A DNA stretch of 64,000 nucleotides. It comes from Symbiodinium sp. CCMP2592. Lineage: Eukaryota > Sar > Dinophyceae > Suessiales > Symbiodiniaceae. This document shows positions 26,165 through 63,257 of the stretch, in pieces. The translations under genes were made by a program, and so were the position numbers. The first letter of the stretch is position 1; the number at the start of each line of letters is the position of its first letter. Under the pieces are notes generated by a model. That model saw only the letters and a list, made by a program, of their open reading frames with translations. It was not told the origin of the DNA and made no database searches. The stretch covers positions 292,501-356,500 of the forward strand of contig CAJNDT010006190.1 of assembly GCA_905221615.1 (NCBI GenBank). The letters run 5' to 3'.

Positions 26165-27400
26165 ATGGGCTGCGGCGCCTCCTCGAAGAAGTACGCAGAG
26201 CACGAAGATGCAGCGCTTCATCGTGCTGGTCTGGAGGAAGCAGCGTTTCGCGAGGAGGTCCGCGAGCCTGAGCTGGGCCAAGAAGGTACGGAGGCTGTCT
26301 TCCACAAGGAGCAAGCCACCACGAGCATCCCAGAAGCTCCAGACCTAGACAGGTCTGCCGCCACAGCCCGGGGAGCCTGGCAGATGGAGGTTTCCCCGGG
26401 GCTTTGGGAGACTGTCTCTTCGGATGTGAACATGACTCTGACGGAGGCCTGCCATTCAGGCCAGCTGGTGGTGCTCTATTCCGTGCGTGGTGCCCGGCCC
26501 AGCGAGGACGCGAGCTACGACGTGGACTTCCGCACGTTGCTCCAGACCAACCGCAAGACGGGCAAGGCCCAACAGCTCCGCTGGGATCAGACAGCCTTGG
26601 CACCAGGTCCGGCAGCGGGCTCTCAAGTCGGAGCGGGAGCCCATGACGGAGCTCGGACGAGATATCAGTGGGAGCTGAAGGACGGGCTCTGGGCAGACTT
26701 CGAAGAGGAGGAGGAGCAGCACATCGTGCGAGCTTGGATGCATGGTCAGGACTTCATTCGATACGCAGCTTGGGGTCTCGAGTACGAGATCAACTTCCCA
26801 AGAATGGTTCAGATCAACCTCTCGACAGGGAACAAGCGACATATTCGCGTAAAACCAGTCGGGACCCACTATGCTGAAGTGCCTCAACCGTATGCCGGAC
26901 AGGACGAGCCGGAAAAGCTGAAGGAGCCTGAAAATGCGAGGAAAGAGGAGGCAACATCCAAGGCCACGACGGAACCCCGTCAGGCTCACCCCAAAGCTAG
27001 GAGTGTCCCAGAGAAGAAGCGTTTCAGCCTGGGCAAACAGCCCGGCGACACATCCGAACGCAAGGAACCCAGCGGAGGACCCAGAGCCAGGCCCAGGGGG
27101 CCTACAGGAGCTGACAGAGAGACGAAGCCGGAGCCACCGGAGCCGGGCGCAGCACGCCCTGAAAATTTCGAGCTCCCGGCGGGTGCATCCTGGCCCGCCT
27201 TGCCTACTGCGAAAAGGGAGGCAGGAGTGCTTTTCCAGGATCTCTGTAACACACGCCAGCTTGCGGCTGCAGAGAAGAGGTCGCATTACAAGGCGCAGTG
27301 CTTAGCGTGGCATCCAGACAAGAACCTGGACAATCAGGAGGTGGCAACAGAAGTGTTCAAATTCCTGCAGCTTGTTCGCGATTGGTATCTGTCATCTTGA
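26165..27400 (+). CDS. Intronless WWE-WWE-J-like protein with MGC acylation start
   Basis: A single 411-codon open frame. It starts MGCGASS, a classic site for N-myristoylation at Gly2 and palmitoylation at Cys3, so membrane anchoring is likely. Residues about 72-140 and 168-230 are two WWE-like domains; each has the W...GLW start, and the second ends with YEINFPRMVQINLSTGNKR, matching the WWE closing pattern. WWE domains bind (iso-)ADP-ribose and occur in ubiquitin/ADP-ribose pathways. A charged Pro/Lys/Glu-rich linker follows (about 235-345). The last 55 residues resemble a J-domain core with HPDKN at 383-387 (HPD is the Hsp70-stimulating motif) and helix III-like FLQLVRDWY. Helix I is weak. 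The lack of introns contrasts with the neighbours and could reflect retroposition. The domain combination is inferred by eye. Confidence 0.85.
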   Translation: MGCGASSKKYAEHEDAALHRAGLEEAAFREEVREPELGQEGTEAVFHKEQATTSIPEAPDLDRSAATARGAWQMEVSPGLWETVSSDVNMTLTEACHSGQLVVLYSVRGARPSEDASYDVDFRTLLQTNRKTGKAQQLRWDQTALAPGPAAGSQVGAGAHDGARTRYQWELKDGLWADFEEEEEQHIVRAWMHGQDFIRYAAWGLEYEINFPRMVQINLSTGNKRHIRVKPVGTHYAEVPQPYAGQDEPEKLKEPENARKEEATSKATTEPRQAHPKARSVPEKKRFSLGKQPGDTSERKEPSGGPRARPRGPTGADRETKPEPPEPGAARPENFELPAGASWPALPTAKREAGVLFQDLCNTRQLAAAEKRSHYKAQCLAWHPDKNLDNQEVATEVFKFLQLVRDWYLSS

Positions 27401-34111: not shown

Positions 34112-34633
34112 GTAAGGGAGGCTCATCGTGTGTGGCGGCAGGTTTAGGCCACACTTTCATGCACACCGGTTCTTACCCGCCAACCCAAATCCGAAGCCAA
34201 ATGCAGTGGCAGAGAACTGCCTGCCTGCAATCACAGGCTTGCGCGGAGACTGCAAATTCAAGCTTGTCGGAAGGAGCATCTCCCCGGACAGGTTCGGCGC
34301 GGCCTGGCGAGGAAGCCGGAAGGCTTCGAGCTAGTTCTGCACGCCTTTGCCCGCTCTGAGCAAGCACTCACGATGTGGAGCAGCATTCACGTGTCTGATG
34401 CACGGACTGAAGTCGTCGTGGTCGTGGGAGAAGCACAACACACCTTCGAACAGCTAATTCCAGGGTCTCAGTAGCATAGTCATAGTCACTTCGTCCTCGA
34501 AAGAGAAAACGATTGCTGTTGTTTTCAGGATTTTCCCTGAACCTCCTCCTGAGCTCCAGCTCCAAGACTTGCAGCACCCGCAGCTTTAGCCACGAAAGCC
34601 AGCGATTTTTTTAGTAGACTCCAATCACTTTGC

Positions 34634-37052
34634 ATGAAGATTTGTGTGCGACGGCGGCCGTGCGCAGCGGGTGAGACGGAATCCAGCAACTGGACCTTGG
34701 AGGATTTGAAGTCCAAAGCTGCTGCAGATACGGTTTTTGGACCTGACACGAGCCAGCAAGAGGTGCTTCAGTCCATCCTGGAGCCTCAATTGGACAGGTT
34801 TCTGCAGGAGCCTGGTTTCAGCGCCGTTTTTCTGGCATATGGCCAGACTGGCAGCGGCAAGACTCATACGATTTTTGGCCCGCCTGGTGTGCTCACGGAG
34901 CATGACTACAACCAAAGCGGAGGCTCTCCTCAGACCTGGGGTTTCTTCCCATACGCGGCGGTGGCAACGCTTGGAGCCCTAGAGCGTCAGGGGCTCCTGA
35001 AAAGAGCGCAGCTGAAGGTCTCGGCAGTGGAGGTGTACTTGGAGCGAATGTTCGATCTTCTCAACGAGCGGCACCACGTAGCGGTTCCTGGGGCATCTGT
35101 GCGTGCTGCCTCCAATCGGCCAGATAATGAATCCGCGAAGTACGATGCGAATGGAAAGTGGCTGCCTCCTGGGAAGTGGCTCGGCGAAAAGACACTGCCT
35201 GGAATCTCAGCGACAGCCAAAGAGACGGTGATTGACTCTGCGATGGATGTAGTCCATGTTGCGCGGCTTGTGGAAGCCACCCGATCGGCTCAGTCGCATG
35301 CCCTGAACCATCGATCCAGCCGGTCGCATTGCATGATCACCTTGACCCTACGCTTGATCGACTCAACGGGTAATCTCTCCGAGGGTCGCCTGGTCTTCGT
35401 GGATCTGGCTGGCTCAGAGCGGGTCGGCAAGAGTGGCGTGAATGCGGACAGCACGGGGGGTGCAAAAGCTTTCAACTTACCCGGAAGGGTAACAGTGGAC
35501 ATCCCGGGAACTCGCTTCGATGAGGCACGGTCGGTGAACTGCTCCTTGAGTGCTCTTGGCAGAGTCATCGCAGCACTGGCCCGCCGGGACAAGTATGTCT
35601 CTTTCCGGGACTCTGCTTTGACTCAGTTGCTGAAAGATCCACTCACTGGCTGTGCTGCACATGTCACCGTGATCTTGGCACTACGTGCTGAGCAATCCAA
35701 CGACTCAGAGACCCAATCCACCATGCGCTTCGGGACCGTGTGCAAAGATGCCGCGGGAAGTAGCAACATGCGAGCGAAATCGGTCCCATCGAAATGCCGC
35801 TCAAACAAAGCTGGAGCTGCAGCCGCGGCTCTCGCAGACCTTCGCAAGCAGCTCCTGGCAACTACGGAGGAAGTGGAGCGAATGACAGCCGAGGGCCAAG
35901 ATGAGCACGTGAACCCCCAAGGCTTCGCGGCTCCGACCATCCAGGGCTTCCTCGATAACAAGGCCAAGTTCGAGGACGCAAAGCGCCTGGCTGCTCGGCA
36001 GACACCTTTCTCGGTGGCGGTGGTGCGAGACTGCGAGACATCCAGGGGGGGGGGGGGGTTGCTTCTAGTCGAAAGGGCGGAGCCGATCACGCAGCAGCCT
36101 GAAGCTGCTTCTCAATGAGGGGTGAGGGGGTTGAGAAGAGCAGTCTATCCTCGGCCGTAAACCGAGTAGCCGAGACAGCAGAAGGGTGTAAATACGGGAC
36201 AGAAGGACAATGCCATATAGCAGTCAACACCCGTCACAGTCATCCGGACCATCAGCATGGCTATAGTTGTATCACGTGCGCTTTCCGTTCCTTTCAGTTC
36301 CTTCCGAGGTCACCCGCTTGAAAGAGCAGATGGCCGAGCGGCGCAGCGAGCTGCGGCTCGCTGGGGGCGCCGAGGAAGGCGACAAGCGACTCCAGGAGCG
36401 TCACCGCACCCCCCCCACCCCCTCCCGCCCCGCCAAAGCTCCTAGGCCAAGGATTCGAGGCCTAGCTGCTATACTGATACGAAGGTTGCTTCGAAAGGTT
36501 TGTGATGGTTCCTTTTTGTTGCTGTTGATGCCGTCGTTTGTCGTCGCCGTCCTCTTGCTGTCGTGTTTGTTGAGATGGGTGTTGTCGTCATCGCCGTTGT
36601 TGTTGCAGTAGCTGGTGTTGCCTTTAACATCGTCCGTGTCGTAACGTCGTTGTCGTGATTTCTTTTGTCGGTCTTCGGCAGAATAATGGTGATGGCATCC
36701 GCGCCTTACTGTTAGTTCTTGCATCCGGACTTGTCTGGTCCTAGGAACCAGTTCTGAGACTGGCAGGATCTGGGCACGTCTCTGACCACTGCCCAGCAGG
36801 CGACATTCGTAGCGTCCGGCATCTTCTACCGTCAGGTTGGCTGCATGCTTAGTACTAACCAGCATCCCCTTGCACCCTTCACAGAAAGTTGCTAAGAAAC
36901 CGCTTGTGCTCATGCTCTAGATGCGCGAGCACTCCTTCCAGGTGACCACGGGCATCTGGACAGGGCGCACACCAGCGCTGCAACAGAAGATGACCCTTCG
37001 TGATCAGCTCACAAAAGAGATAGCCTTCCTGGAGTCCGCAGGGACTGCCTGA
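34634..37052 (+). CDS. Kinesin motor protein
   Basis: An uninterrupted frame from ATG 34634 to about 36050 holds a kinesin motor. The start is KICVRRRP (strand 1), the P-loop GQTGSGKT is at residues 70-77, switch I is NHRSSRSH from about 225, switch II is DLAGSE at 257-262, and VNCSLSALGRVIAAL and a SALTQLLKD helix follow. It hydrolyses ATP and moves on microtubules; the motor is N-terminal. A 14-G run at 36045-36058 makes the frame uncertain from there to the TGA at 36116-36118, and the exon may end before it. Next, about 36298-36390 reads a charged coiled-coil piece (VTRLKEQMAERRSELRL). A last exon, 36921-37052, starts after TCTAG, contains RDQLTKEIAFLESAG and ends in TGA. Subfamily not determined. 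Confidence 0.88.
36045..36058 (+). repeat. 14-G run within or just after the kinesin motor exon
   Basis: Fourteen consecutive G. Read through, it gives four Gly, then about 20 residues and a stop. A 1-2 base length error would change the frame. Confidence 0.95.
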
Positions 37053-40540: not shown

Positions 40541-43500
40541 GCACGGTGTACCAAGCGATGGACCAGCAAACCGGCGAGCTCCTCGCGGTAAAGGAGGCGC
40601 TGGAAGAAGCAAGAGCGAACTTCATACATGATGTCATTCTCCGTAGTCTCCTGCTCTGTCCTGCTGGCATACCCAAAGTTGCGAGTGCAACGATGATGTC
40701 GCGCATTGCAGCCTGCAGGTGGTGATCAACGCTTCCGACTCTGCTGACATGAAATTCAAGGACCAGCTCGAGAACGAGATCCAAATCGTCAAGGACCAGC
40801 CTGCTTCTGCTACGTCGTCGGCTACAGCACGCTAGACGAGAAACCGGAAGTTATGCGGCAAGACTCACCCTTCTTGGCCAAAGGGGTTGCTTTGCCATTT
40901 GCCATTGTCTAGTGACGATCGGCTGCCGGAATCCTGCCTTGGGCTTGAGAACAAATTCCCCGTTCGAGATTCGTAGATGGAAACAGGCTGTCTTACGGAA
41001 CCAGAAGAAGGGGGACAGAACTGCTTGAGGTGAATTCTGCTTGCTCTTGCACGCAGAAACGGATGGGCAGGGAGGGAGATGAACGCTTGAACCCTCCACA
41101 ATGGCTGCAAAAGCTGAAAACATGCAGTCGTGACACTCCAACAGCGGACAGGCTCCGGGCTTTCTAGAACCGAATGTTTGCTCGAAGACAATGGCAGACT
41201 ACTGTAGCACTTTTGAGTCTTTTTGATGAGAGTGACGGCTTCACCAAGCCAAGGCCGGTTTTGGCTGCCCTGTGCAGAAGCAGCCTCTAACCTCTCGGCG
41301 GCAGGAGCTAAAACATCCTCGAATAGTCGCTTACCTCGGCCATGATTACATGGCCAGGTGCTCACATGATGCAGGTAAAAACAAAAGCTATTCGTGCACG
41401 CATGCCGCGATACAGCTCTGCAGCAGCACCTTGCACGGATGCCTGTGCTTAAATGTGCCTGAGTGTCGAGTGCCTAGGGTGACTCCCTGTGCATCTACTT
41501 GGAGTTCATGGCAGGCCAGCGCGGCAGTTGATTCGAATATTCCGCAAACTCACGCAAAGCAGCCGAAGCAAGGGTTCGCAGTTACGACGATTTTGATTCG
41601 CAGCGGCCTACCCCCTGGACACGGGCTTCTTGGCAGGTGGCTCCTTGGCGCAAGCTCTGCGGCAGCGCAAGGCTCAGATGTCACTGCAGCTAATGCTAGC
41701 AGGAAGTTGGAAGCATCCTGTTTCTGGTCCCTGCAAGCATCCGGAGCTTCAAATCATTGAGGTTCGGCTGCTTCGAAGAGTCCTTGCTGCTGGCCCGAGA
41801 ACTCAGGGGGTGTACAGTGTTCAGCAGCGCAGACGCGCACGACATTTGCTCCACGATGGTGCCTGTCACTGATGAGGGCCTCAATGCTCCCAGGCCTACA
41901 CGAGGGAGATGTTGGAAGGGCCAGGAACTAAAACGTTGAAGAGGTGGCTGCCGCGACACAACTACATGTATGTAACCCAATAGATGGACTCAATGTAGGA
42001 GACTTGATGCTAATGGGTCGATGTTCGAGAAGCGGATGTCCAGTCCTCTTTCTTGAGGTTGGAGTACCTGCACACGAGGGAGACCCCTGTCGTGCACCGG
42101 GACATCAAAGGCAAGCCTCAACCGGACTTTCCTCATGGCTGCTCTTGTTGTCAAGGCCAAGGGACGTCAAAGCAACTCTGTGGTAAGGTCCCGTTTAAAC
42201 TTCAATCTGTGAATGCGTAGCATCACGGTTTTGAATCGATTGCCGCATTGACAGTAGTAACTACTGGCATCCAAGCATCCTGCCGACACCAAGGCCCAAC
42301 AAAAAGTCTCTCTGCCAAGGAAACATGCAGACTGTCCACCCATCCTTGTGTCTATCTATCGGTACATCTCCGCTCCATCCACTTGTAAATCTAAGCCTGT
42401 CTTCGTGTGTCTCTGCGTGTCCTTGCATGCATGTATGTGGATCGGTATGTGCATAGGTAACTGAGTATCACGCAGCTAGGCGGGACGGAAGTCGTCCAGT
42501 GCCATACAGTGCCAATTAGCAACACCTAACGTGAATGTCAACAATGAGCACTCGCAGCCTGTAGGCCGATAGTTCAACATACTGTAAATGCTGAGACCCG
42601 CTAAATTGACTTTTGCTGTGGTTACGGAATCATATGTGAGGGATGCAGTTTTGGATTTAGATACATGCCTGACTAGCTAGAGGTGAGTAGCAGTGTACAT
42701 GTATTTCTGCATGTAAGTCTGCACAGACGCCAAGCGCTTAGGTATGCGCAATGCGCACATACTGATGATGTACATGCACAGACTAATCACTTACGATACA
42801 CATACCAATTAACTTGTGCCTACGATGATTGAGTGTGTCATGTGCATGACAAACTGCCCCAAGACCGCACTCTACGTTTGCTTACTTAGCATATGCTGTA
42901 TTATCGGGACGGCTCTCGCTCCCAGTATGGGCTCGTCTGCTATTGCATGAGCTGTCTTCCGCATAGGCACGCAGGGCTCGTGATCCTGCAAGTCGCCCGA
43001 ACAGCATCCGAAGGCGCACTTACGGCCATTTGTCGTGTCTCAGGCGCCAACGTTCTCGTCGATTTGGACTGCCACGCCAAGCTGAGCGATTTCGGTTGCT
43101 CGAAGCGCGACAACGACACGATGCCTCTCGGACTCCGAACTCTCCGAACTCCGAGACGGGACAGAGGAGAAACAGATTCGGTCCGCAGCAGTGTCAAAAA
43201 GCTGAGGTCACACACCATGCGGGGTTCCATTCCCTGGATGGCGCCCGAGGCTCGAAGATCTACTCGACCATCAATGCAATATTCAACAGCACCAGCCCGC
43301 GATCGGACTTTGCAGATCTCTCCACACGGCGACACACCTGGTGCCACCGACGGAAACTGACTTAACAGTTCAAACCCGGGATTTCGTTGCAAGGGTCCCA
43401 AGGCACCGGTTCCAGAATCTGCAAGAAGCGAAGTCCTGCACATGGCGCTTGCCTTGCATGTCGCAGGTCATCAAGAACACGGGCTATGGACGAAAGGCTG

Positions 43501-47469: not shown

Positions 47470-48010
47470 CAGGATGCTGCCAAGCTCTACCGCGTTCTCG
47501 CACACCGGCCAGCTGCCCCAAGCTAAGTCATCGAGTCATAATGGCATTGTGCAGCTTCAGTACAGCTGTAATGCAACATCCCATACGGCATGATCTCTTA
47601 AGTCTTAAGTCTACTGAGTCTACTGTTCCTGTTGGTCGTAATCATCCTGTTTGGGGTGGCTCCGGCTCCGCCCTGCCATGTCCAACTTCCTGCTCCTTCA
47701 GGTCCAAATGACCATGCAGCAGCGATTCCTGGGCTTCGGTGCGTTCATCCTGCAATACCTCGTGGCTGTGGTGCGCAGGGTCTGTCGCAGCATTGTTATG
47801 GCATGTGCATTGTCTTTGCTCTGCACTGCCTGCCTTGAAGCTTGGAGCTTGCTGGGTAAAGATCAGCTGCAATGGACTTGAGCGGCATGCTCTGACATGT
47901 GGCAACTTTCCATTGTCCTTTCCTAGCTGATGGCACAGGTTGTGCTGCTGATGGCAATTCAACTGATTCTGGCTAGCACGTCTGCACCTGAGCAGAAAGC
48001 GAAAGATTGA
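47470..48010 (+). CDS. Membrane protein, C-terminal exons
   Basis: Exon 47702-47779 follows a CTTCAG acceptor and reads FLGFGAFILQYLVAVV, a transmembrane helix, ending at a GT donor. Exon 47927-48010 follows CCTAG in the same phase and reads LMAQVVLLMAIQLILAS, a second helix, then a short polar tail and TGA. A preceding exon, 47470 to about 47517, reads DAAKLYRVLAHRPAAP. The product is an integral membrane protein with at least two C-terminal helices. Family not recognised; the exon before 47702 is not resolved in phase. Confidence 0.5.
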
Positions 48011-48281
48011 GTGAGGTCAGTCGAGGGTCAGTGTCGCTGCAGAGCATCCTTTCGGATTTACCCAGGGCCCCCAAAGTGAGCGAGTCCTGCAACTCTGCAT
48101 CGCAAGCTGCAGTCGGTGACGGCTCGAAAGCCGACCCGGCAGGACGCCCATTGCCACCATCGGCAAATTGTCCTGAGCCCAGAACACGGGAACGCTGAGC
48201 AGCTCGGGTTTCGAGGGGGCATTGGTCCGATGTCAGCAGTGCCCTTCGCTTGCGCTGGTCATTGCGGCGCAATGCCCTGAG

Positions 48282-48368
48282 GTGGGTTGTTTTCACGACA
48301 CTGGACTTCGACAACTACCTTTGCAACTTTATCCTCTTCATCTTTGACTGCGAGCATGCTTTCACTTG
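48282..48368 (+). CDS. Unassigned coding-like exon
   Basis: Between an AG acceptor and a GC donor the frame reads WVVFTTLDFDNYLC and FILFIFDCEHAFTW. It is aromatic-rich and partly hydrophobic. No family recognised. A basic frame follows at about 48390-48720. Confidence 0.35.
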
Positions 48369-49439
48369 GCAGGCCAGGGGCCGAGAAGCCGCAAGTTCCC
48401 GACTCTGAGCGCCATAGCACGGCTCCAGGCAAGGCTCCAGCGCCGCTCGGCGCGACGGCTGGGCGGCGAACCCCTCAGGCACCGCCCCAGGCCAAGGGCA
48501 GATGGGGGGTTCGGGGTTTCGCGGGAGACTTTGCAGGACCTGGCTCCTGATCTACTGGGCTCCCGTCGGCGTAGCGCTCGCTTGCGCCACTCGCATCAGA
48601 GCATGTCAGAGCTTCCCGAGACGTTTTGGCATAGAGCAGCGATTGTCCGACACCGAGGATGCAGGAATGTCTCTGTAGTGGAGAAACCTCATGTGACGGT
48701 TCTTGCTAGACAGCGCCTCCCCACCTCATGACCCAATGGCATGAACTCCGCGTGCTTGATCACCCAGGTCTGTGTGTCGGTTTACTTCAACATTTGCCCC
48801 CTGACGGCCGTGCATTACGGAGCTGTCAGGCGCGATTCAACTCGGAACAGGCTGGCATCTGGTTTACTACGAAGCTTGTTACTGTCATTGTAGACTGACA
48901 TGCATAAGGGGTAGATGCATGATGCCGCTTCCAGCAACTTCTTGTGCCCCGACTCTGCTGCATCTCCTCGAATCGAGTAGACAGCACAACAGAGAGCTCA
49001 AACAGAGTACTGCCTGACAGGAATCAGGAGCCTGTGCTGATGCTCACCTCGAACATGGGCCTCCCTCAGAGCTGCTGCGCACCTCAGGTGCAGAATGCCA
49101 ACCCCGAGCGGAGTTGTTAAAGAGACGCGGTTCGGGCAGGTGATCGTTCCGGAGTCAGATTCTCTGGCACTGGACCAGTCTGCTGGGGTGCAGGTTAGTC
49201 GCGCTCTCGGCTCCAGCAGACTCCAGCAGTGCGCTGAAAGCAATGGCTTTGTGCGAAGGTGTGCCCTGCGTGAGTCCGGGCGAAGTTGGAACAGGCAAGC
49301 CCATGGGCACATGGCTCGTTGACGCTGTTTTGACTAGACCGCGGTGCTCGCTTCGTCACTTCGCTCAACCAGGCAGCCGCCGGCCACCTCGACTCTACTA
49401 CGCTGCGAGCTTGACAGCGGCATGAGCACATCATTGCCA
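48369..49439. other. No gene recognised
   Basis: Contains the basic open frame noted before and short frames near 49095-49320. I see no kinase N-lobe motif that would complete the fragment at 49.84 kb. Confidence 0.45.
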
Positions 49440-49840
49440 AGAGCAGATCATGTGTCCAGACCCACCGTTTTGGGTGGCTCAAGGTGAGCAGCTAGGAGAT
49501 GCATGGATGAACCCCTTTTTCTTCTGCGGTCTCTGACTCCGACATGCTCTGACCGACTGCGATGCACGGAGCTTCGTTTCAGCTTTCCACTTCTCGCACC
49601 TTCCACCGCATTTCGTCGCGATCAACTCACCGTCTCTCTATTGTTGCCAACGGTGCTGGAGGGCCCTGGTCTTTCTCACGCACGCAACACTATGTCACCA
49701 CTGTGTCGCCATTCTCGCGACCTTCTGAAAGGCCGAGGCTTCCACTGCACAAAAGGGGCCCTTCAACAAGCTCGCGACAACTGCAATCGTCTCATCCGGG
49801 CGCCAGCAGACTCGTCGAGTGGCACTGCGCATCTGGCTTT
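49440..49840 (+). repeat. Inverted repeat, left arm (401 bp)
   Basis: Matches the reverse complement of 50314-50713 with only a handful of differences by eye (a G/C change in the CTCGCGAC block, TCCGGGCG versus TCCGAGCG, and small run-length changes). The same peptide frames therefore appear on opposite strands in the two arms. Confidence 0.95.
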
Positions 49841-50130
49841 GACGATCCATCGGGATCTGACACCGGATAATGTTCTCGTCACCACAGATTGTTCGTTGAA
49901 GATCTGTGACGTTCGATAACTACATTCATCACATGATGCTTCTGCAGGTCAAGATGACCTCACCGACGATGTAGTCCACAAATGGTACCGGGCCCCGGAA
50001 ATCGTGTTGTGCCCGTCAAGATACACAGCGCTCATTGACGTGCGGGCCATCTTTGCAAAAATGTTCTCAACTTTGGACCAGCTATGGAAAATCGCTGCGA
50101 TTATTCCACCGGACACGCAGGGGCTGGGTG
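49841..50130 (+). pseudogene. Decayed MAP-kinase catalytic fragment
   Basis: The loop of the inverted repeat holds recognisable MAPK/CMGC kinase sequence: IHRDLTPDNVLV with DCSLKICD (catalytic loop, strand before DFG), then after a CTGCAG acceptor LTDDVVHKWYRAPEIVL, SRYTALIDV, AIFAKMF and LDQLWKI. The DFG region reads DVR and then stops. The residues between IDV and AIFAKM that normally contain W and GC are absent. The Lys of HRDLKP is Thr. No N-lobe is seen, because the kinase similarity begins exactly where the left arm ends. The intron 49911-49947 would be only 37 nt. I read it as a non-functional fragment rather than an active kinase. Confidence 0.75.
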
Positions 50131-50313
50131 GGCTGACAAACAAAAAGCATAACTTCGTGCTGCAGCTGCGGCAAGACACACGAGCAAAAGCCTTTTCAAG
50201 AGCGTTTCCTACAGGCTATGCCGCATGCCTGTTGCTTTGCCTGTCTTCGGCTACATGCTGTGTAAGCCAATTCTGCTCCTTTGGAGGGGGATTGAACGAC
50301 ACATTTCGCACTG

Positions 50314-50713
50314 AAAGCCAGATGCGCAGTGCCACTCGACGAGTCTGCTGGCGCTCGGATGAGACGATTGCAGTTGTCGGGAGCTTGTTGAAGGGCCCCT
50401 TTTGTGCAGTGGAAGCCTCGGCCTTTCAGAAGGTCGCGAGAATGGCGACACAGTGGTGACATAGTGTTGCGTGCGTGAGAAAGACCAGGGCCCTCCAGCA
50501 CCGTTGGCAACAATAGAGAGACGGTGAGTTGATCGCGACGAAATGCGGTGGAAGGTGCGAGAAGTGGAAAGCTGAAACGAAGCTCCGTGCATCGCAGTCG
50601 GTCAGAGCATGTCGGAGTCAGAGACCGCAGAAGAAAAAGGGTTCATCCATGCATCTCCTAGCTGCTCACCTTGAGCCCCCAAAAACGGTGGGTCTGGACA
50701 CATGATCTGCTCT
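50314..50713 (-). repeat. Inverted repeat, right arm (400 bp)
   Basis: Reverse complement of 49440-49840. The arms are separated by 473 bp. Confidence 0.95.
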
Positions 50714-52731
50714 CAAACAAGGCAACCACAGTCATGTCATTGTAGATTTTAGATGACCCGAAGTCTTTTTGCAGAGGCCATAGGCCCTTACAGAATCATG
50801 GAGCAGCTTGGGAAGCCTGGAAACTTGCTGGAAATTGGAGCTGGGTTCAGGCACAAAATGTTTGCAGGAAATCGTGACGACCTCTATGTTGAAACAGCAA
50901 ACTTCGCTGCGAAAATCCACCGGATTTGCGCCGAGGTAGTCGTTCCAGATGGGCGCCCGAGTCCTTCCAGCCTCCAGGCCCTTTCTGGTGACTGACGGCT
51001 GTTTGACGGCATGACTTGCTTGTCCGCAACACACCAGAAAAAATCAACTCTGGACTGTTTTGGTTTCCTGCAGTTCGCACGCATGCTTCGGATTCGTGGG
51101 CTCTGCCAGGCAAGATAAGCGGAATTGATCGACTTCATCCTGCCTGTTTTGGGGACGTAGTCGAGCTCTCCCATGCCATGTCTTTGAAGCACCGCAAGCG
51201 CGTGTGGCTAATCCACCGAAAAAAACGTCACTCCCCGATGCGGATTACTGCTGCATACTGCTGCTCGAGTTGTTCGCGTACGCCATGCGCGAAGTCCATG
51301 CCTCGATGCCGTCAGAACCCGATGACCTGTCGCAGGGACGCCCACCGTGCAAGATGTGCTGATGGATAGGGCAACGTGCTTGGCAGCCAAGCACGGACGT
51401 GGCATCGAAGAACGTCGAGCATAAATCTCGTGAATCGGGCTGCTGCGGCTGCTGCCAGTCAATCAGGCCCATGCTCCAATCACTCCAGTCACAGCGGAAT
51501 GAATGGGAAGCCACCAATTCTGATGCAATTGTGCTGCTGGGCATTGTGGGATATCTTTTGAGCTGCACGTGACTTTCTTCCATGCCCGCATGCCGATGAG
51601 CACAGAGACAGAGATGATTCGAAAGATCTTTGCAGAGTAAGGTACCGTGTTAACTGCTTTCCCCCGCACACATGTTAAGCAGGAGATTCTATGTTACGCA
51701 GCCTCAAAAAGTTGGTTCGGTTACATTCTGCTGCGGACACGCAGAATGTTGACCCCCATGATCATACAGGCATCTGCATGTTTCTTGCAGGTCATGGAAG
51801 GCCGTGGTGGTGATGGCAACCGTGGGCTTCGATACGGTGCGAGCCGGCAAGGGGGCAGCAGACATGTCAAACGGGAAAGATCCGTTGAGCGCACGGGATT
51901 GCACGACGGCTGATGCATGGCAGGTCATGCGGAGGCAACACCCTTGCAGATGTTGGAGCCTCAAAGCCTGTTGGTTGATTCGAGACAAGTTTGCAATTCC
52001 GTTTGTCCAGGCGCTGGTGGCTCACCAGCCACGGCTTCGCCCCAGCCGTCTACGAGGTGCAGCCTGAGACCAGGGGATGCAGCCTGCATTTCGCGCCTCG
52101 TGCGTTCCGGGGCCTCTTGGTGTTGCGCAGAAATCAGGTACAGTGCGTGGCAGAGAGTAGACTGAGTAGATCTCTGAGAAAAGTAGCTGTTCTGGCAGAC
52201 AGGCCATGCGGAAAAGCGGTGCCGGCGGCCTCGGGAGTGCAACTCAGTCTTCTAGCATTCGGGACACAGGTCTTCTCAGAAGGCGCTCTAAATGACCATC
52301 CGTCATCAACTCAGGCTGTACCAGAACACCTTCCCAAACCTTGCAGAGTGGACCATTGGCGACTTTCCATGGATGGCCCGGAGCCCTGAGTCGAAGGGAT
52401 CAGAGAATGGAAAGGGGCTTTCTGCAATCTGGGATCCAGAAGTTCTCCTGCAAAGGCCAGGGCTCGCATTTTCGTCACTGCGGTGAATCAAGACACCGGC
52501 GCGCTCAGTCACGCACTTACACTCCACTTTTGCGTTTGTGTCTTGGCCGCCTTGGCGGCATCGTTCCTAAGAAGCTGTTGTGGCTGTGGGGTTCAGGCCC
52601 GTCACCGGTGCAGTCGGCTGTGATCATGCGCAAAGTCTGCTCCGCCCACTGCCTCAGGCCTCGCCTGCGTTTCGTGCATTCTGCGACCGACCACATGCTT
52701 CTAATCTGGGGGTTCGAAAGAGCGCGTCGAG
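50714..52731. other. No gene recognised
   Basis: Coding-like pieces with no family: about 51258-51360 (+, ELFAYAMREVHASMPSEPDD), about 51555-51625 (+) and 51797-52067 (+). None could be joined. Confidence 0.4.
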
Positions 52732-55700
52732 GTGCGACTCCGAAGGAGCGTGCCTGGCCTGTGACAGTGGCTACGTGCTGGAAGTCGGGCGCCCAGAAGC
52801 ATAGGAGTGCAGAGGCTTCGAGCTGCTTGCAAGCACAGCATGACTATCACTTCTCATGAACCGCCGGCCGTCGCCATCACAGCAGGAGCGCGAGCAAGAC
52901 GAACACCAGGTCGGTCCGACCTGGCTTGGTTCGAGAATGGTTCAGATGCTTGCATTTCCTCCGCGGATGAAGTCGCTGAAGGCGCCTGCGACAGGGCGCA
53001 AGTTCCGGGTTTGCCTGCCTGGGTCCTGGAACCGCTGAAGCTTCGCCTCTGCTTGCGTCGGTTGAGCATGTCTGCACGGGTTGCGGTTGAGGCCCTGTGG
53101 TGAAGGATGTGCACAGTGCCACAAGTCAGGCAATGGTTTCGAGAAGCTGCATGTTTCAAGTGGTCGCGTGTTGCTTTCTACAGGCATGTCGCCACCGAGG
53201 CAGACATGGTGAAAAGATGGCGGAGTACAGTAGTAGAGTAGTAGGTGGTCGCATGATCTGCAAATTCAAAGCAATTTCCGGTGAAGCTCAGGCTCCACAG
53301 CTTTCCGACAACCAGGGTTGAACATTCACAAAGAACGGGTTGCAAAGAGGAACATTAAATATGTTTTCAGTGCAGGCTGTAAGATTGGTTCATCATCGTC
53401 GATCGTCGTCGGGCCCCGACAATTGTGCAATTAGGGACTAATGTGCTCGCACCATGTCACAGAGCGTCGGATCCGTAAGTATTCAATACATGCACACACG
53501 CACATTTCTTCAAAACTTGACACGCAGATCACCCTGAATGAATAAATATTCTCGAGAGAGCCGCTTGCAGGGAGGAGTGCGACAGCTGATCTGAACAGAG
53601 GAGCGATAACGGAGCCTCGAACTCCGCTGAAAACCTCGAGCACTCAGCTTCAATGCTGCCTCAGGTACATTTACTGGCATTGGTATTCGCTTTGCCATTT
53701 CAGCTACTGTATGACGCCCATCGAAGTGCCATCAATGCTGATTGATACGGCTTGTACCATGTTGCAGACATGTGTTTGCTACCTATATTGCTATTATGCG
53801 AACACGAACGGTCCCGTTTTTTTAAACTGTCATTGCCCATACTGGCACGACCAAGATGATGATATTCTGGAGTGTTACTTTTCTCGTCACTCCGTTCCAT
53901 CTTTCTTCTTCATAGTACTGCTGCCATTGCTGCAATCGTTCCATTCTAATTCAAACTCTCTCTCTCTCTCTCTCTCTCTTTTTTGCCGTTCGTGTCATAC
54001 CGTCTACCTGAGTATCTGCAGTAGGCACTTTGTTTTCTGTCGTGATGCCTGCCGTGAAGTACTCGTCTTTGGCGCTCAAGTTTTTGCCAATACAAGCGTA
54101 CAAGTGAGTGCGAAAGCTAAGGCAGCTTGACATGTGTTTCCTGTTGTTGCCAAGAAGAAGAAGTTAGCCTGTGCAGCTGGAGGCCCTGGGCGATGCGATG
54201 AAGGGAAATGCGTTCTAGGCCTGGAAAGCAGTCAGATAAGCAGGGAAGCTCCGCTGTCAGAGTGCCTCCAGCATGAAGTCGAAGCGCCAGGGCGTGGGCT
54301 TTCCTTGACCGGCCAGTGCCATGAAGCTCAGCACAGAAGGTCGCACCGTGCACACTTAAAGCGTACGTACAACAGCCGGTTGGGCATGAGAAGACTTGAG
54401 GGCTTGGTCGGCAATTCCAGGTGATCGAAGTCTTTCTGTTTGCCGGTTTTATCTTCGGGATGCTTGAGGCTTAAAGTCATGGCATTACCAAGCTTCTCCG
54501 TGAAGCACAACAGGTTCAGACCACAATACAGCATTGTGGTTTCAGGCATTTAAAGGAGATTTCCTCTGTGCATCAAGCGATCGTTTCAGAATGAAGTTCG
54601 AACTGATCCAAGTGCTGAGGTCTTCCATGTGCTGGAAGTATCTGCTCGGGCTGCGACGAGGAGGTGCTGTCTGGACATGACAGAACCAATCTCCCCGATA
54701 GACCTGATGACCGATGTATGGCATGCAACCTGACAAGACTCCAGCACAGGCCACAAGCCTGGGCTGGGCGCCCAGGAAAAGCTCTTTTGGGAGGACGCCG
54801 AAACAGAAGCCTCGCAGCATGGAGCTCCTCGTGTCGGATTCGCCCGCCAGTCATGTTGTCGGGCAAGGTTGTATCGTTTACGAGCTGTCTGACACAAGAA
54901 GAGATCATGCAAAGTATCAGCGTGTAGGGTCTAGGGTTTAGGGTGGATGGAGTTTGGGTTTCCCTAGATTTTCGCCCAGGTCGTTCTGCCGACGACAGTG
55001 TTGCAACTCCAACAGAGCTTCCATGCCACTGCCTCGTGGCATGCTTTGTCCCGCTAAGCTTTTCTTCGAAAGGATAGTAATGCTTGGGAACTGATCCCGA
55101 TCCACCACGAGCCACTCTTTACCTTGTGTCAGGTCGTCGCTGCCCCGCCACCTTCGGCCTCACGAAAGACCGCCGAAGTTGCGAGTTCGAGTCCTGGGCT
55201 CCTTGGAGCCTCTCTGCGTCTGCAATGCCTTGAGAAAGTGAGGCCATGTCAAGTTCGCGGCTGCCGGCGATGCGATGCACTCCTGGACTTCTGCCAGGCC
55301 AGCAGTCTCAGCACATCTAGAAGAAGGCTTTACTAGAACCTGGAAGCTCGCTGTGAAAAGGCTGTCACGCTCAATTGACGGCAGGAAACGAAAGAATAGA
55401 CGTGCAATTGTTTGTGACTTTTTGACTGTGATTGAGGAATGCGTGGAAGGCTCGACACTCAAGAACAGGAGCGATGGCACCAGAATTGTACAGGACTGCA
55501 GCTTCGGTGGGGTGGGTTCCCTTTTGAGTTGCAGTCCGTCCTAGATGTGCTCTCATACGGCCAGCTGCGAGGACTGCCTGAGCTGCGCCGATCACTGTTC
55601 CAGGCCCGGCGGGCCGAGCGGAAGAACTCGTCATGCGGCGCTGCAATTCGGAATTCGTGTTCTCAGGTGCGAGCTGCTGGGAGAAGGCCGCTGTGATCCA

Positions 55701-57720
55701 GAGCGCTGCGACCAGGGCTTCAGCCTGACACCCACAGGAGACCGGACGGAGACCGAAATGTGTCTCTCAAGCTCAGCTGTACTGGTAGTGCTCTTGGTTG
55801 AGAGCTCTGAGACCGACACGAGGAGTGTGCGCCCCCTGCTCCATGCACTGCTCCAACTGCAGCCTCTTGAACTGAACAGCTTATGAGGTTGCCGCACTTG
55901 TCTGCATAATCTCGAGTACATCTGACCTGTTTGGTACCTGTTCTTTGTTGGATAAGGAGGGGGGACCAGGACCGTTGAGTTTTGAAAGTATGCAACAGGG
56001 ATCCTGGACGGCCCTCCCGCTTGCGTTTCTAATTCTTGTGCAAAGAAAGGTGCCACTGATGTCGCGCCCGTTTCGAGCACATGTGAGCAGTCACCTGTGT
56101 GTCGCGTTCTGCCTGTGATTCTGCCTTCAGGCAAAGCTGGACCGGGTCACTGCGACTCAGGAGACGACAGTGACACATTTCTGCCCTCGACGAACATATG
56201 TCATTATTCCTCATCTCTTTGACTGGGCACCACCGACGAAGAAGTGTTTTTATCCTGTCAGGCGTCGTCGTCTAATTTTTGCTGGGTTGCACAAGCACGT
56301 GCGGTAGAGCATGGTGAATCTCGCAATTCAACCCATTGCTGAGAGGAAGCTGCCGAGCTGGCTATGGCTTGCAAGGAGGCAGACAAGTGCACTTTCTGCG
56401 GTGTGTCGGGGTCGGGATTCCTGGACGAGCATCGGCAGCACCTTGCATTCAGCTGATATGGGCATGTGTGCGTCTGCAGGCACGGACTGCTCAAAGTGCC
56501 AAGTCGAAGGCTGTGACGTTTGCGCCATTTGTCAGAAAGAGACCTGGTGGGGTGCTTTGTCTTGCAGCTCCGGCTTCTTAGCAGGTTGAATATGGGTTCA
56601 GATGAAAAGTATGGAGACCGGGACGTGTTGCAATGGGCCGAGGACCTATCCCTGGGTCGCTGTGACGTCTGCCGCGAGGGCTTCGGATTAACACCGGATC
56701 GCAGCTGCGAGGCATCCCTTGCACAGCTCTGCACGAGTAAGTCGCATACAGACCAAGACATGTTGACAATTTCCTTTCTTGCAGCAAACAAGCCACGACT
56801 GAAGTCTTCGTCCATGCAGTATCAGTGTCAGGGATACTCGATTCGTTGACGGTACCTTAGAAGGCGTTCGGCGGTGCAACCGTCGTCATTACTTGTTGGG
56901 CGCCGGACAGCTACAGCGAGGTTTGAATTTGCCTCCTTTGGAACCGTGCAAGGCCTGCGCGACCGCCTGCAAACGTTGCACAGGGGCTGGAGCCCTGGAG
57001 GGTGACAACAAAACAAATCCGTGGAGGTAAACTGGCAGGACACCGTTCAGAGGCGCCAATTACACCACGCACGGCGAGTAAGACACACCGCAACCTGGGC
57101 TCAGGCAGGTGTCTCTCCAGGCTGCGCAGATGCTCGGCAGCAATGCTGGTAGGTGAAAGTGCTGTTTCGGACAATGCAATGGCGTGAGATCGATCTTCCA
57201 CCGCGCGTCTCTATGCTCAAGACCCTGTGTCCAGCCAGGAATGCGTTCCAGGATTTGGGCTGGACGCGGGACAATGCTTGGTCCGAAGCTGATTATGCGG
57301 GAAACGCTGATGCTGCAAGCATACCGCACGGTTTGTGCAGAAGTGGCTGTCCAAATGTTTACCTCAAAGCTGAAGTTGTTTCACCGCAACGGAACCCATC
57401 CATTGCTCGCAGAAATATCCCACCAAGCACAGAGGCTTGCGCAGATCAGTGTGAGCGCTGTGCGGTCCGTGGCCCTGGTTTCTGCGACGAGGCGCCGGTT
57501 GATCACAACTTGTTAACAAAGATTTGATACATCCATTCTGACATGTTCTGCATGCTCCAAAAAATGCAGTCCACGAGCAGGACTCTTGCAGTGTTGGCTG
57601 GGTGCGGCCCTCAGCTTTGCAAGGTTTGGCAGCTGTCAGCAGCGGAATCGTAATTTTTTGCCAGCCCAAGCATCGGATTGACTGCAAAGGTTGTTCGAAA
57701 TGTCAGCGGCCGCGTTCTCA
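52732..57720 (+). CDS. Cysteine-rich furin/GF-receptor-like repeat protein, partial
   Basis: Many small + strand exons carry the same Cys spacing: 52732 to about 52798 (CDSEGACLACDSGYVLE), about 54180-54225 (RCDEGKCVLG), 55243-55297 (CQVRGCRRCDALLDFCQ), 55545-55612 (CSHTASCEDCLSCADHC), 55667 to about 55740 (GRCDPERCDQGFSLTPTGD), 56480-56551 (CSKCQVEGCDVCAICQ), 56643-56711 (GRCDVCREGFGLTPDRSCE), 57445-57491 (CERCAVRGPGFCDE) and about 57673-57720 (CKGCSKCQ). C-x2-C pairs and G-[YF]-x-L after a Cys are typical of furin-like and growth-factor-receptor Cys-rich repeats, usually extracellular or luminal and disulphide-bonded. Several donors are GC. Not all exons were found, and both ends of the gene are unknown; it could be more than one gene. 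The Cys frames are chosen over rival frames by repeated motif and splice sites. Confidence 0.65.
53957..53981. repeat. (CT)n tract
   Basis: About twelve CT units. Confidence 0.9.
54924..54962 (+). repeat. Telomere-like tract
   Basis: TAGGGTCTAGGGTTTAGGG followed by decayed units, the best TTTAGGG-like match in the window. It lies within the Cys-rich gene interval. Confidence 0.6.
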
Positions 57721-57840
57721 ACAGATTGCAAGGGTGTGGATCGCACGGTCAGCATTGCATCCTTGCTGTGCAGCTGGAATTGCCACGTTGATGTTGTTCC
57801 GTTGGTGGATGTTTGGTTTATCGCATCGAAGTTCAGGCTC
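56000..57840 (+). repeat. Segmental duplication, copy A
   Basis: Collinear with 61254-63257. From 56000 to about 57180 the copies are clearly related but diverged with indels. From 57181 to 57840 they align without net indel (constant offset 5417) and with about eight differences by eye. Homology stops abruptly after 57840. Confidence 0.93.
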
Positions 57841-59940: not shown

Positions 59941-61275
59941 TCAGCTGCTACGCCCCACACGCGGGAATTTATATCGACACAAGGTGCCTGTCAGTCTTGC
60001 CGCAACCACAAGAGTCGAAACCCAAAATCCTAAAAAGCGCAATTTCGCAAGCCATTCATGATTTCAAGGCAAAGCGCGTTACCTTCTCACCGGCTTCTGT
60101 CTCAGAGAGTTTTCGTACCGTGTACCGGCCTATTGCGTGTTTGGAGACCTAGACAAGTTTCGCAGCCTGACAGCTTCGCGAGTGTCGTCCGACACACCTG
60201 TTTGTTCCTTGCATCATCTCCTTGCGTCGAGCGCGTCCACTTGCAGGAGCGGCAGTTCCTCAGCCTTTGAACCAATGCAGGGGTACATGCTGAGGTAAAT
60301 GCATGGCGGTCAAGCAAGTCACGAAGATAATCATATTTTCAGGCCACCGGCCCTCAGCCCCGCCCCAGCCTGCGTTTGTTCTGCCGTTTTAAGGTCGTGG
60401 AAGTGTACGCGATCGAAGGCCGACGCCCGCTTCAGCTGGGCACCCAGGAAGGGAGGACACTTCATCACTGGCTTGTCAGGCAAGGCTGCAGTGTTGACGA
60501 GCTGTCTCGCACTGCTGGATTCCTCGGGTGTCTCGCCGAGGCATTTTGTCGCTTGCAACGGCGTCCAGATGCCACTGCCTCATGTCATGCTTTGCCCTGA
60601 ATTACAGATTTTGAATCCTTGCGTGTCAGGTCGTCGCTGCCATACCAGCGTTGGTAGCCACAACCTCGGATGAACAGTAAAGATCGAATTGGGCTTAGAT
60701 TGTTTATGAGACTGTTTCACGTTGTCCGCTCGGTTATGCAAATGGATGGGCGAGGTAGGCACATGAGAGAATTGAGTTGGGTTCTGTCCTCATTCGATGT
60801 AAACGCTGGCAGGGGCAGGTGACGGCAACTTACGTTTTGTGTGGCCTGCGTCGGACAAACGGCATGTCAGTTTTGGGAGAACATGCGTTTTGACTTGTTT
60901 TTGACCGAGGTGTTAGGCATGTTGATTTCCGTGGAAAACGGCGGAATTTCCGATATGCGTTTTACGTGACTCGCGCGGGACAAACCCAATTGTGTGCCAA
61001 CTTGGTTTCAGTTACCGTCGCTTTCTTTTTCGTTACGAACTTTTAGACAAGCATGTTTTTGGTTTGCGTTTTGCCATTTCGCTCGGCCTGCGTGGGACAC
61101 AAGGCACTTCCTGCAAGAGAAAGATGAACAGGATGATGATGGCCATCGGCGGAGTAGACTCAGAAGCACACCATCATCATCATCATCATCGCCGCCAATG
61201 CTCTTTTCTCAGAGTGGATTAGACCATATTCGCTGAGTGTTGCACATATGCAAAGGGATCCTGGACGGCCCGTCC

Positions 61276-61465
61276 GCTTGCGTTTCAAACACTTGTGCAA
61301 AGAAAAGGTGTAAAAAATAGTTTTATGCCACTGAGGTGAGGTCGGTCGTACTCGTCTCGAGCATATGTGAGCTTGCGTTTCAAACACTTGTGCAAAGAAA
61401 AGGTGTAAAAAATAGTTTTATGCCACTGAGGTGAGGTCGGTCGTACTCGTCTCGAGCATATGTGA
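61276..61465 (+). repeat. 95-bp tandem duplication
   Basis: The block starting GCTTGCGTTTCAAACACTTG at 61276 recurs at 61371, identical as far as I can see. It is within copy B; copy A has a single, diverged unit. Confidence 0.9.
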
Positions 61466-61793
61466 GCAGTCACAAGTGTGTCGCGTTCTGCTTGTGATGT
61501 GTTGCTTGCGACGAACATGTGCCATGATTTCTCATCTCTTTGACTAGGCACCACGGACGAAGAAGTGTGTTTTGTCTTGTCAGGAGCCGTCGTCTAATTA
61601 TCGCTGAGTTGCACAGGCATGCGAGGTAGAGCATGCTGAATGTCGCAATCCAAGCCTTTGCTGAGAGGAAGCTGCCATGGCCTGCAAGGAGGCAGACAAG
61701 TGCAGTTTCTATGTTATGTCGGGGTCGGGATTCCTGGACGAGCATCGGGCAGCACCTTGTTTTCAGCTGATGTGGGCATGAGTGCGCATGCAG

Positions 61794-63137
61794 GCACGGA
61801 CTGCTCAAAGTGGCAAGTCGGCTGCTGTGACGTCTGCGCCCTTTGTCTGAAAGAGACCTGGTGGCGTGGTTTGACACAGAAGAGGGGTGGTTGCAGATGA
61901 AAGGTGTGGCGACCCAAGCAAGCAACGTTGCCTTCACGTCTTGCGTTGGCCCGAGGACCAATCCCTGGGTCGCTGTGACGTTACGGTGCGAGGCACCCCT
62001 GTGCACTCTGCTCCGTGCCGCTGGCAAGGCTAACACTGTCAGGTGAAGGTGCACTTCTGGGAGTTCGATGCATTGGTGCCTTATGTCACGCAGGGCAGAT
62101 GTTTCCAAGACATGTAAAGACTACCTTGCAGCAACAAGTAAGCCACGACGAAAGCCATCGTCAATATAGCATAGGCGGCATTGGCCTTATGAGGAACCTC
62201 AATTAAACCAGGGTTGGCAATCGTCATGAGATCTCACTTCTTGCTCGACACTGAGTCAATGGCATGACAAAAGGCATCGTGCTTTGCTTGGTGGCAAGGC
62301 CTGCGCGACCGACTGCAAAACGCGGCTCGAGCCCCGGAGCCTGGAGAGCAAGCACATCGGTGGAGGTGAGCTGTGAGCCAGCAGGATACCGTTGAGAGAC
62401 ACCAATTCGACCACACACTGCCATGAAGACACACCGCAACCTTTGCTCAGGCAGGTCCCGCAGGCTACGCAGACTCTCGGCAGCAATGCTGATAGGTGAA
62501 GGGGCTCCTTCGGGCAAAACGCTACTCGTCTTGGTGTGACATCGACCTTTGGCTGCAGATCCCAAGCACTGTTTCGGACAACGCAATGACACTCGTTGGC
62601 GTGAGATCGATCTTCCACCGCGCGTCTCTATGCTCAAGACCCTGTGTCCAGCCAGGAATGCGTTTCAGGATTTGGGCTGGACGCGGGACAATGCTTGGTC
62701 CGAAGCTGATTATGCGGGAAACGCTGATGCTGCAAGCATACCGCACGGTTTGTGCAGAAGTGGCTGTCCAAGTGTTTACCTCAAAGCTAAAGTTGTTTCA
62801 CCGCAACGGAACCCATCCATTGCTCGCAGAAATATCCCACCAAGCACAGAGGCTTGCGCAGATCAGTGTGAGCGCTGTGCGGTCCGTGGCCCTGGTTTCT
62901 GCGACGAGGCGCCGGTTGATCACAACTTGTTAACAAAGATTTGATACATCCATTCTGACATGTTCTGCATGCTCCAAAAAATGCAGTCCACGAGCAGGAC
63001 TCTTGCAGTGTTGGCTGGGTGCGGCCCTCAGCTTTGCAAGGTTTGGCAGCTGTCAGCAGCGGAATCGTAATTTTTTGCCAGCCCAAGCATCGGATTGACT
63101 GCAAAGGTTGTTCGAAATGTCAGCGGCCGCGTTCTCA
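61794..63137 (+). pseudogene. Partial, partly broken copy of the Cys-rich exons
   Basis: The copy of exon 56480-56551 lies at 61794 to about 61865 and has a Cys changed to Trp (CSKWQV) and shifted Cys spacing (GCCDVCALC). The copy of exon 56643-56711 (from about 61951) has lost about 36 bp, including the second Cys and the G-F-x-L motif, so GRCDV runs into a different frame. The exons in the right part, 62862-62908 (CERCAVRGPGFCDE) and about 63090-63137 (CKGCSKCQ), are intact. Either a pseudogene with a converted 3' end, or alternative exons of the same gene of which two are damaged. Confidence 0.55.
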
Positions 63138-63257
63138 ACAGATTGCAAGGGTGTGGATCGCACGGTCAGCATTGCATCCTTGCTGCGCAGCTGGAGTTGC
63201 CACGTTGGTGTTGTTTCGTTGGTGGATGTTTGGTTTATCACATCGAAGTTCAGGCTC

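Follow-up and report, generated by a model that had tools for sequence, protein, structure and literature searches.

A large inverted repeat encloses a dead MAP-kinase fragment in the dinoflagellate Symbiodinium sp. CCMP2592

The inverted repeat at 49440-50713 is best explained as a local inverted duplication around a dead MAP-kinase pseudogene, apparently non-functional and fairly recent, in duplication-rich DNA. We put the probability of this reading at roughly two in three. An inverted copy of one arm would have been placed ∼0.5 kb from the original, and the two copies flank a dead MAP-kinase remnant that is truncated at its N-terminus. The likely route would be fold-back or template-switch DNA synthesis, or break repair, with blunt joining. 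Such a duplication explains arms confined to a single locus, their high identity, the missing target-site duplication and the unlike outer flanks.

Results

The window, the whole 64-kb stretch of DNA analysed here (C5328:292501-356500), belongs to a nuclear contig of 362,893 bases, near its end, and contains no N. Its G+C content, taken together with that of the stretches sampled for comparison, is 52.8%. Rfam and tRNA scans gave no matches anywhere in the window. Searches of the organism's own genome covered an assembly of 1,098,105,373 bases in 5,383 contigs (∼1.1 Gb) and scored first-look candidates, so that diverged copies may escape them. Two protein-coding stretches were seen elsewhere in the window. 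A kinesin motor domain lies in an uninterrupted frame of 521 codons at 34553-36115 (+) (Pfam Kinesin, E 8.4e-54), apparently intronless there, and a 411-aa open frame at 26165-27400 (+) carries WWE-domain similarity in two stretches (E 6.2e-17) as well as a sub-threshold match to DnaJ.

Two near-identical arms

Self-comparison resolved the repeat into three parts:

49440-49840, plus strand: left arm, 401 bp
49841-50313, no strand: spacer, 473 bp
50314-50713, minus strand: right arm, 400 bp, the reverse complement of the left arm at 98.75% identity

The original prediction, which described arms of 401 and 400 bp with few differences enclosing 473 bp, was reproduced in its coordinates and spacer length, and the arms pair end to end over 401 columns with four substitutions and a single one-base indel. 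The inverted repeat is far beyond chance. Within the 5.2 kb around it, the longest other inverted pair, leaving out the repeat's own two pieces, measures 37 nt at 73%, and in self-comparison of the entire window this is the sole inverted pair of at least 80 bp listed apart from a simple-repeat array at ∼58.8-59.1 kb. Beyond their outer ends, the flanks of the two arms are unlike each other.

The five differences fall at arm positions 33, 36, 73 (the indel), 335 and 360, that is, all within the outer 73 or the inner 67 bp of the arm, and the central 262 bp contain none. Under random placement a difference-free middle of this length has a P of 0.03, or 0.07 if the neighbouring pair is taken as one event (four events). 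Gene conversion between the arms could produce such a middle, in which case the repeat would be older. Inspection by eye placed three of the five differences in or beside homopolymer runs of G, T or C.

Arms and spacer at a single locus

In the own-genome search, arm DNA was found at two places, both inside this repeat (diverged copies may escape), and spacer DNA at one. No target-site duplication is present at the outer ends, 49440 and 50713, where CA (2 bp) alone matches in register, and the longest word common to the surroundings of both ends is 6 bp, out of register. Both junctions were also inspected by eye for microhomology, and none was seen.

The arm, translated in register with the kinase, matched no Pfam or PDB family. 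One open frame runs through it:

49503-49919, plus strand: open frame of 138 aa that starts in the left arm and ends in the kinase fragment

Searched against the genome, this frame returned the same two places as the arm. It leaves 117 arm codons open in the kinase frame, and 2.6% of composition shuffles are equally open; the frame is probably a product of chance.

A spliced-leader relic at the start of the left arm was considered and rejected. The sequence there, CCGTTTTGGGTGGCTCAAG, could be taken for a broken DinoSL with GT behind it; within 3 mismatches, the window contains no DinoSL. Words like TTTTGGCTCAAG, on the same spliced-leader reading, are not commoner than chance (4 found against 8.5 expected). 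In the assembly as a whole, the 21-base DinoSL has 217 exact copies in forward and 212 in reverse orientation, and the control has 0.

A decayed MAP-kinase fragment in the spacer

Most of the spacer is occupied by similarity to protein kinases:

49830-50210, plus strand: decayed MAP-kinase fragment with HRDLTPDN, the activation segment, WYRAPE and part of the C-lobe, in one frame with one stop
49917-49919, plus strand: the in-frame stop, TAA, adjoining the lost DFG (now DVR)

With the frame from 49440 read across the one stop, Pfam Pkinase scored 34.7 bits over 49830-50042 (curated cut-off 31.7), and MAP kinases in the PDB matched with E down to 6.6e-14 (4qny, the closest), best over 49827-50051. 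An own-genome search with the fragment gave four matches from 21 scored candidates. One is the fragment itself; the other three are relatives whose frames are open over 384, 435 and 501 aa. The best relative, L035 (C5352:49991-50206, minus strand, without stops; 384 aa), aligns to 49830-50210 with a tblastn E of 1.4e-26 and 42.6% identity, with gaps of 2, 3 and 9 residues.

DFG, TxY and DxWSxG are the kinase motifs by which we graded the remnant. DFG has become DVR, TxY has become TDD, and DxWSxG is missing. A functional MAP kinase has a complete bilobal domain, all three motifs and an open frame; the remnant, with its stop, its lost motifs and no convincing N-lobe, does not qualify, and the description of a dead kinase fragment holds. 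Codon-position identity between the remnant and L035 is 75, 85 and 51 of 125 (60, 68 and 41% at positions 1, 2 and 3). With such a coding pattern, most of the divergence predates the remnant's death, and therefore dates neither that death nor the repeat. At the DNA level, the match between the spacer and its nearest paralogue is limited to 51 bp at 82%.

Kinase similarity had been predicted to begin exactly at the inner edge of the left arm. The coincidence stands to within ∼14 bp; the exactness does not, since the similarity starts at 49827-49830, which is 11-14 bp inside the arm. Its first codons match weakly, and a few codons at the arm's inner edge may be kinase-derived. In the kinase frame of the arm, a few residues look kinase-like by eye. 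In the 1.5 kb upstream, 47901-49441, Pfam found no kinase in any of the three forward frames. We also considered the arm itself as a decayed N-lobe and rejected this: it scored 26, 28 and 36 against the three paralogue N-lobes, with shuffle means of ∼25, whereas the paralogues score 80-118 against one another. A p of 0.017 for the arm against the L036 N-lobe was a lone low value, out of register, and the glycine-loop region of L035 aligned to 49349-49468, which spans the outer edge of the left arm, at chance level (E 0.30, 29.5% identity). Past 50210, a weak, frame-shifted trace at 50228-50260 has a p of 0.034; the right arm gives a comparable value (p 0.036). Nothing convincing was found of a kinase C-terminus in the right flank.

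A separate stretch ∼6 kb upstream, 42890-43357 (+), shows weak protein-kinase similarity below curated cut-offs (LSDFGCSKR; Pkinase E 0.023), and is possibly a second kinase remnant.

Mosaic flanks and a paralogous locus

A genome search with 48400-51800, extended by further comparisons, identified a paralogous locus on another contig, C5216. Window and paralogue are related block by block, and the blocks keep the window order:

49387-49435, plus strand: left-flank block common to C5216, 49 bp at 83%, ending 4 bp before the left arm
49436-51631, no strand: block of 2,196 bp in place of which C5216 has 71 bp; it holds the whole inverted repeat and 918 bp to its right
51632-52224, plus strand: right-flank block matching C5216:105333-105949 at 73%
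52938-53268, plus strand: right-flank block matching C5216:105973-106282 at 78%

Homology to the paralogue thus restarts ∼0.9 kb past the right arm. To the left of 49387, comparison of the window with C5216:102201-107700 gave simple-repeat matches only. The left block is 49 bp long and nothing is common further left, so that a single short block underlies the agreement with the arm edge. The 2.2-kb difference between the two loci fits either a gain in the window or a loss in the paralogue.

We examined the paralogue's 71 bp as a possible piece of arm. They align weakly to two competing stretches, 49443-49491 (p 0.1) and 49557-49590 (p 0.014); both matches are too weak to point to an original arm, and this candidate was dropped. 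Another 18 bp of the 71 align to 51615-51632 (p 0.007), which may be common to both loci.

Judged from these alignments, the region around the repeat is a patchwork of old duplications and rearrangements, with block shuffling. Two further relationships were noted in the right flank. The segment 52199-52687 has a relative near C5216:78095 (78095-78592) at 79%, ∼27 kb from the other common blocks, and 52164-52714 matches C145:156095-156620 at 73%.

How common such repeats are in this genome

Twenty-four 10-kb stretches of this genome served for comparison, in sets of 20 and 4; they were hand-chosen, mostly on contigs known to be long, and one of the 20 holds 7,500 N. Two separate inverted arms of at least 200 bp within 2 kb of each other were found in none of the 24. 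Inverted pairs of 100-136 bp, lying 3.7-5.3 kb apart, occur in three (L015, L039 and L041), one of which, L015, also contains a quasi-palindrome of 340 bp at 72%. Direct repeats of at least 200 bp, tandem arrays included, are present in six (L016, L021, L022, L027, L038 and L040). Within this small sample, the inverted form is unusual compared with direct duplication. Even one inverted pair per few hundred kilobases would amount to thousands per genome.

Short near-palindromes of ∼94-140 bp were seen in 7/24 of the sampled stretches, among them:

L013:3335-3428, near-palindrome
L015:7077-7185, near-palindrome
L018:4163-4275 and 4440-4548, near-palindromes
L021:2246-2359, near-palindrome
L030:3774-3882, near-palindrome

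Among the matches listed, some of the near-palindromes are clearly related to one another (L015 to L030 at 89%, L015 to L018 at 84%), and the one in L013 matches itself only. These similarities suggest families of small, MITE-like palindromic repeats.

Within the window, 55973-57840 and 61231-63257 form a tandem duplication whose period is ∼5.3 kb. Identity between the copies is patchy: 689 bp match at 97%, other segments at 75-85%. Part of the duplication may have undergone gene conversion or been under selection.

Discussion

The original prediction offered three readings of the repeat: a recent inverted duplication, a mobile element that might carry captured kinase exons, and a source of hairpin RNA. 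Of the three, inverted duplication fits best, with arms at one locus and few differences between them. Near-identical inverted copies, one locus and different outer flanks are what a local inverted duplication should present, and all were observed. Its setting lends further support, both through the direct duplications that are common in this genome and through the mosaic flanks. A passage in PMC8045281 gives 183,516 putative pseudogenes for S. tridacnidorum, whose genome is of similar size. A literature search over titles and abstract openings found no report of nuclear inverted duplications like this one in Symbiodiniaceae. Counting against a commonplace duplication, no comparable inverted pair turned up in the sampled stretches. 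Furthermore, a random inverted duplication leaves two coincidences unexplained, the kinase start within ∼14 bp of the left arm's inner edge and the end of paralogue homology 4 bp from its outer one.

These coincidences are among the features that a fold-back or terminal-inverted-repeat transposon would account for, a Pack-MULE-like element with 400-bp terminal repeats that had captured a kinase gene fragment. A host gene fragment does lie between the repeats at 49830-50210, its capture being putative; kinase similarity runs from the left inner edge through most of the spacer, and no convincing N-lobe is found where the arm starts. Target-site duplications of MULEs are ∼9-11 bp long, but none was present here. 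Multiple copies with terminal repeats would be expected of a transposon, yet the 1.1-Gb search placed the arm only within this repeat and found no second spacer, and the frames scanned matched no transposase. The paralogue, read as an empty site, lacks 49436-51631: its left end agrees to within 4 bp, but its right end lies ∼0.9 kb beyond the arm instead of at it. A transposon family of one copy would be indistinguishable from a non-element. Nothing points to mobility of the repeat, the captured-kinase cassette found no backing in these comparisons, and we consider a transposon unlikely. The two edge coincidences nevertheless keep alive an event of capture or template switching that joined the kinase remnant to the arms. 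A one-off cassette, either a fold-back unit belonging to some dinoflagellate element not yet described or the product of a template switch, might have taken up the remnant as the arms formed, so that the edges coincide, with gene conversion since keeping the arms alike; we hold this to be distinctly unlikely. Equally, the repeat might be old and its arms homogenised by arm-to-arm conversion. The clustering of all five differences towards the arm ends would fit this, as would several disabling lesions in ∼380 bp of spacer against five differences over both arms. This case is built on small numbers, however, and the divergence from L035 cannot date the repeat; we see old, homogenised arms as decidedly unlikely.

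One arm might instead be a false inverted copy introduced during assembly, to which the differences at homopolymer runs would lend some colour. Yet the arms differ, the outer flanks differ, the window is free of N, and a simple fold-back chimera should run on into a mirror of the left flank, which the sequence does not do. On these features an assembly error appears unlikely, and we would give a false copy of an arm little credence. Least credible to us is a hairpin RNA locus giving rise to small interfering RNAs against MAP-kinase genes. Any inverted repeat could physically serve as a source of hairpin RNA, and a transcript through this one would fold into a 400-bp stem, with a predicted MFE of -1023 kcal/mol for the whole 1,274 nt. 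A passage in PMC3853145 reports Dicer and Argonaute homologues and siRNA-like hairpins in S. microadriaticum. Here, however, small interfering RNAs against kinases are disfavoured because the kinase sits in the loop, not in the stem, and because the 401-bp stem, searched as a full arm, gave no other match in the genome search, so that no target in trans is visible at that length. Between the spacer and its nearest paralogue, too, the DNA match is short.

If local inverted duplication is the true account, the repeat is another case in which local duplication and pseudogene decay contribute to the extensive intergenic DNA of these algae. More would hang on it if an element that captures genes lay behind the edge coincidence, or if conversion between the arms were demonstrated; to our knowledge, little is known of either in dinoflagellates.

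Comparison with known systems

Template-switch mechanisms are a known route to inverted duplications. Fold-back duplications that arise by template switching or break repair resemble the repeat in that two inverted copies, nearly identical, stand near each other at a single locus, with no target-site duplication and no further copies found. The repeat differs from them in that no junction microhomology is visible and one arm edge meets the start of a kinase remnant; the mechanism we propose here is inferred. Pack-MULE and Mutator-Foldback elements share with it long terminal inverted repeats around a host gene fragment, whereas here no target-site duplication, no family members and no empty site fitting both ends were found.

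The remnant itself is like other gene fragments (pseudogenes) of Symbiodiniaceae in being a truncated, stop-bearing copy from a family with open members, L035 and L036. Unlike them, it is enclosed by inverted arms, and no spliced-leader relic lies within 3 mismatches in the window. With MAP kinases it shares HRDLxPDN, WYRAPE and the order of the C-lobe, 4qny, a MAPK, being its closest PDB match; it departs from them in its unconvincing N-lobe, in DVR for DFG and TDD for TxY, in the absence of DxWSxG and in its stop codon.
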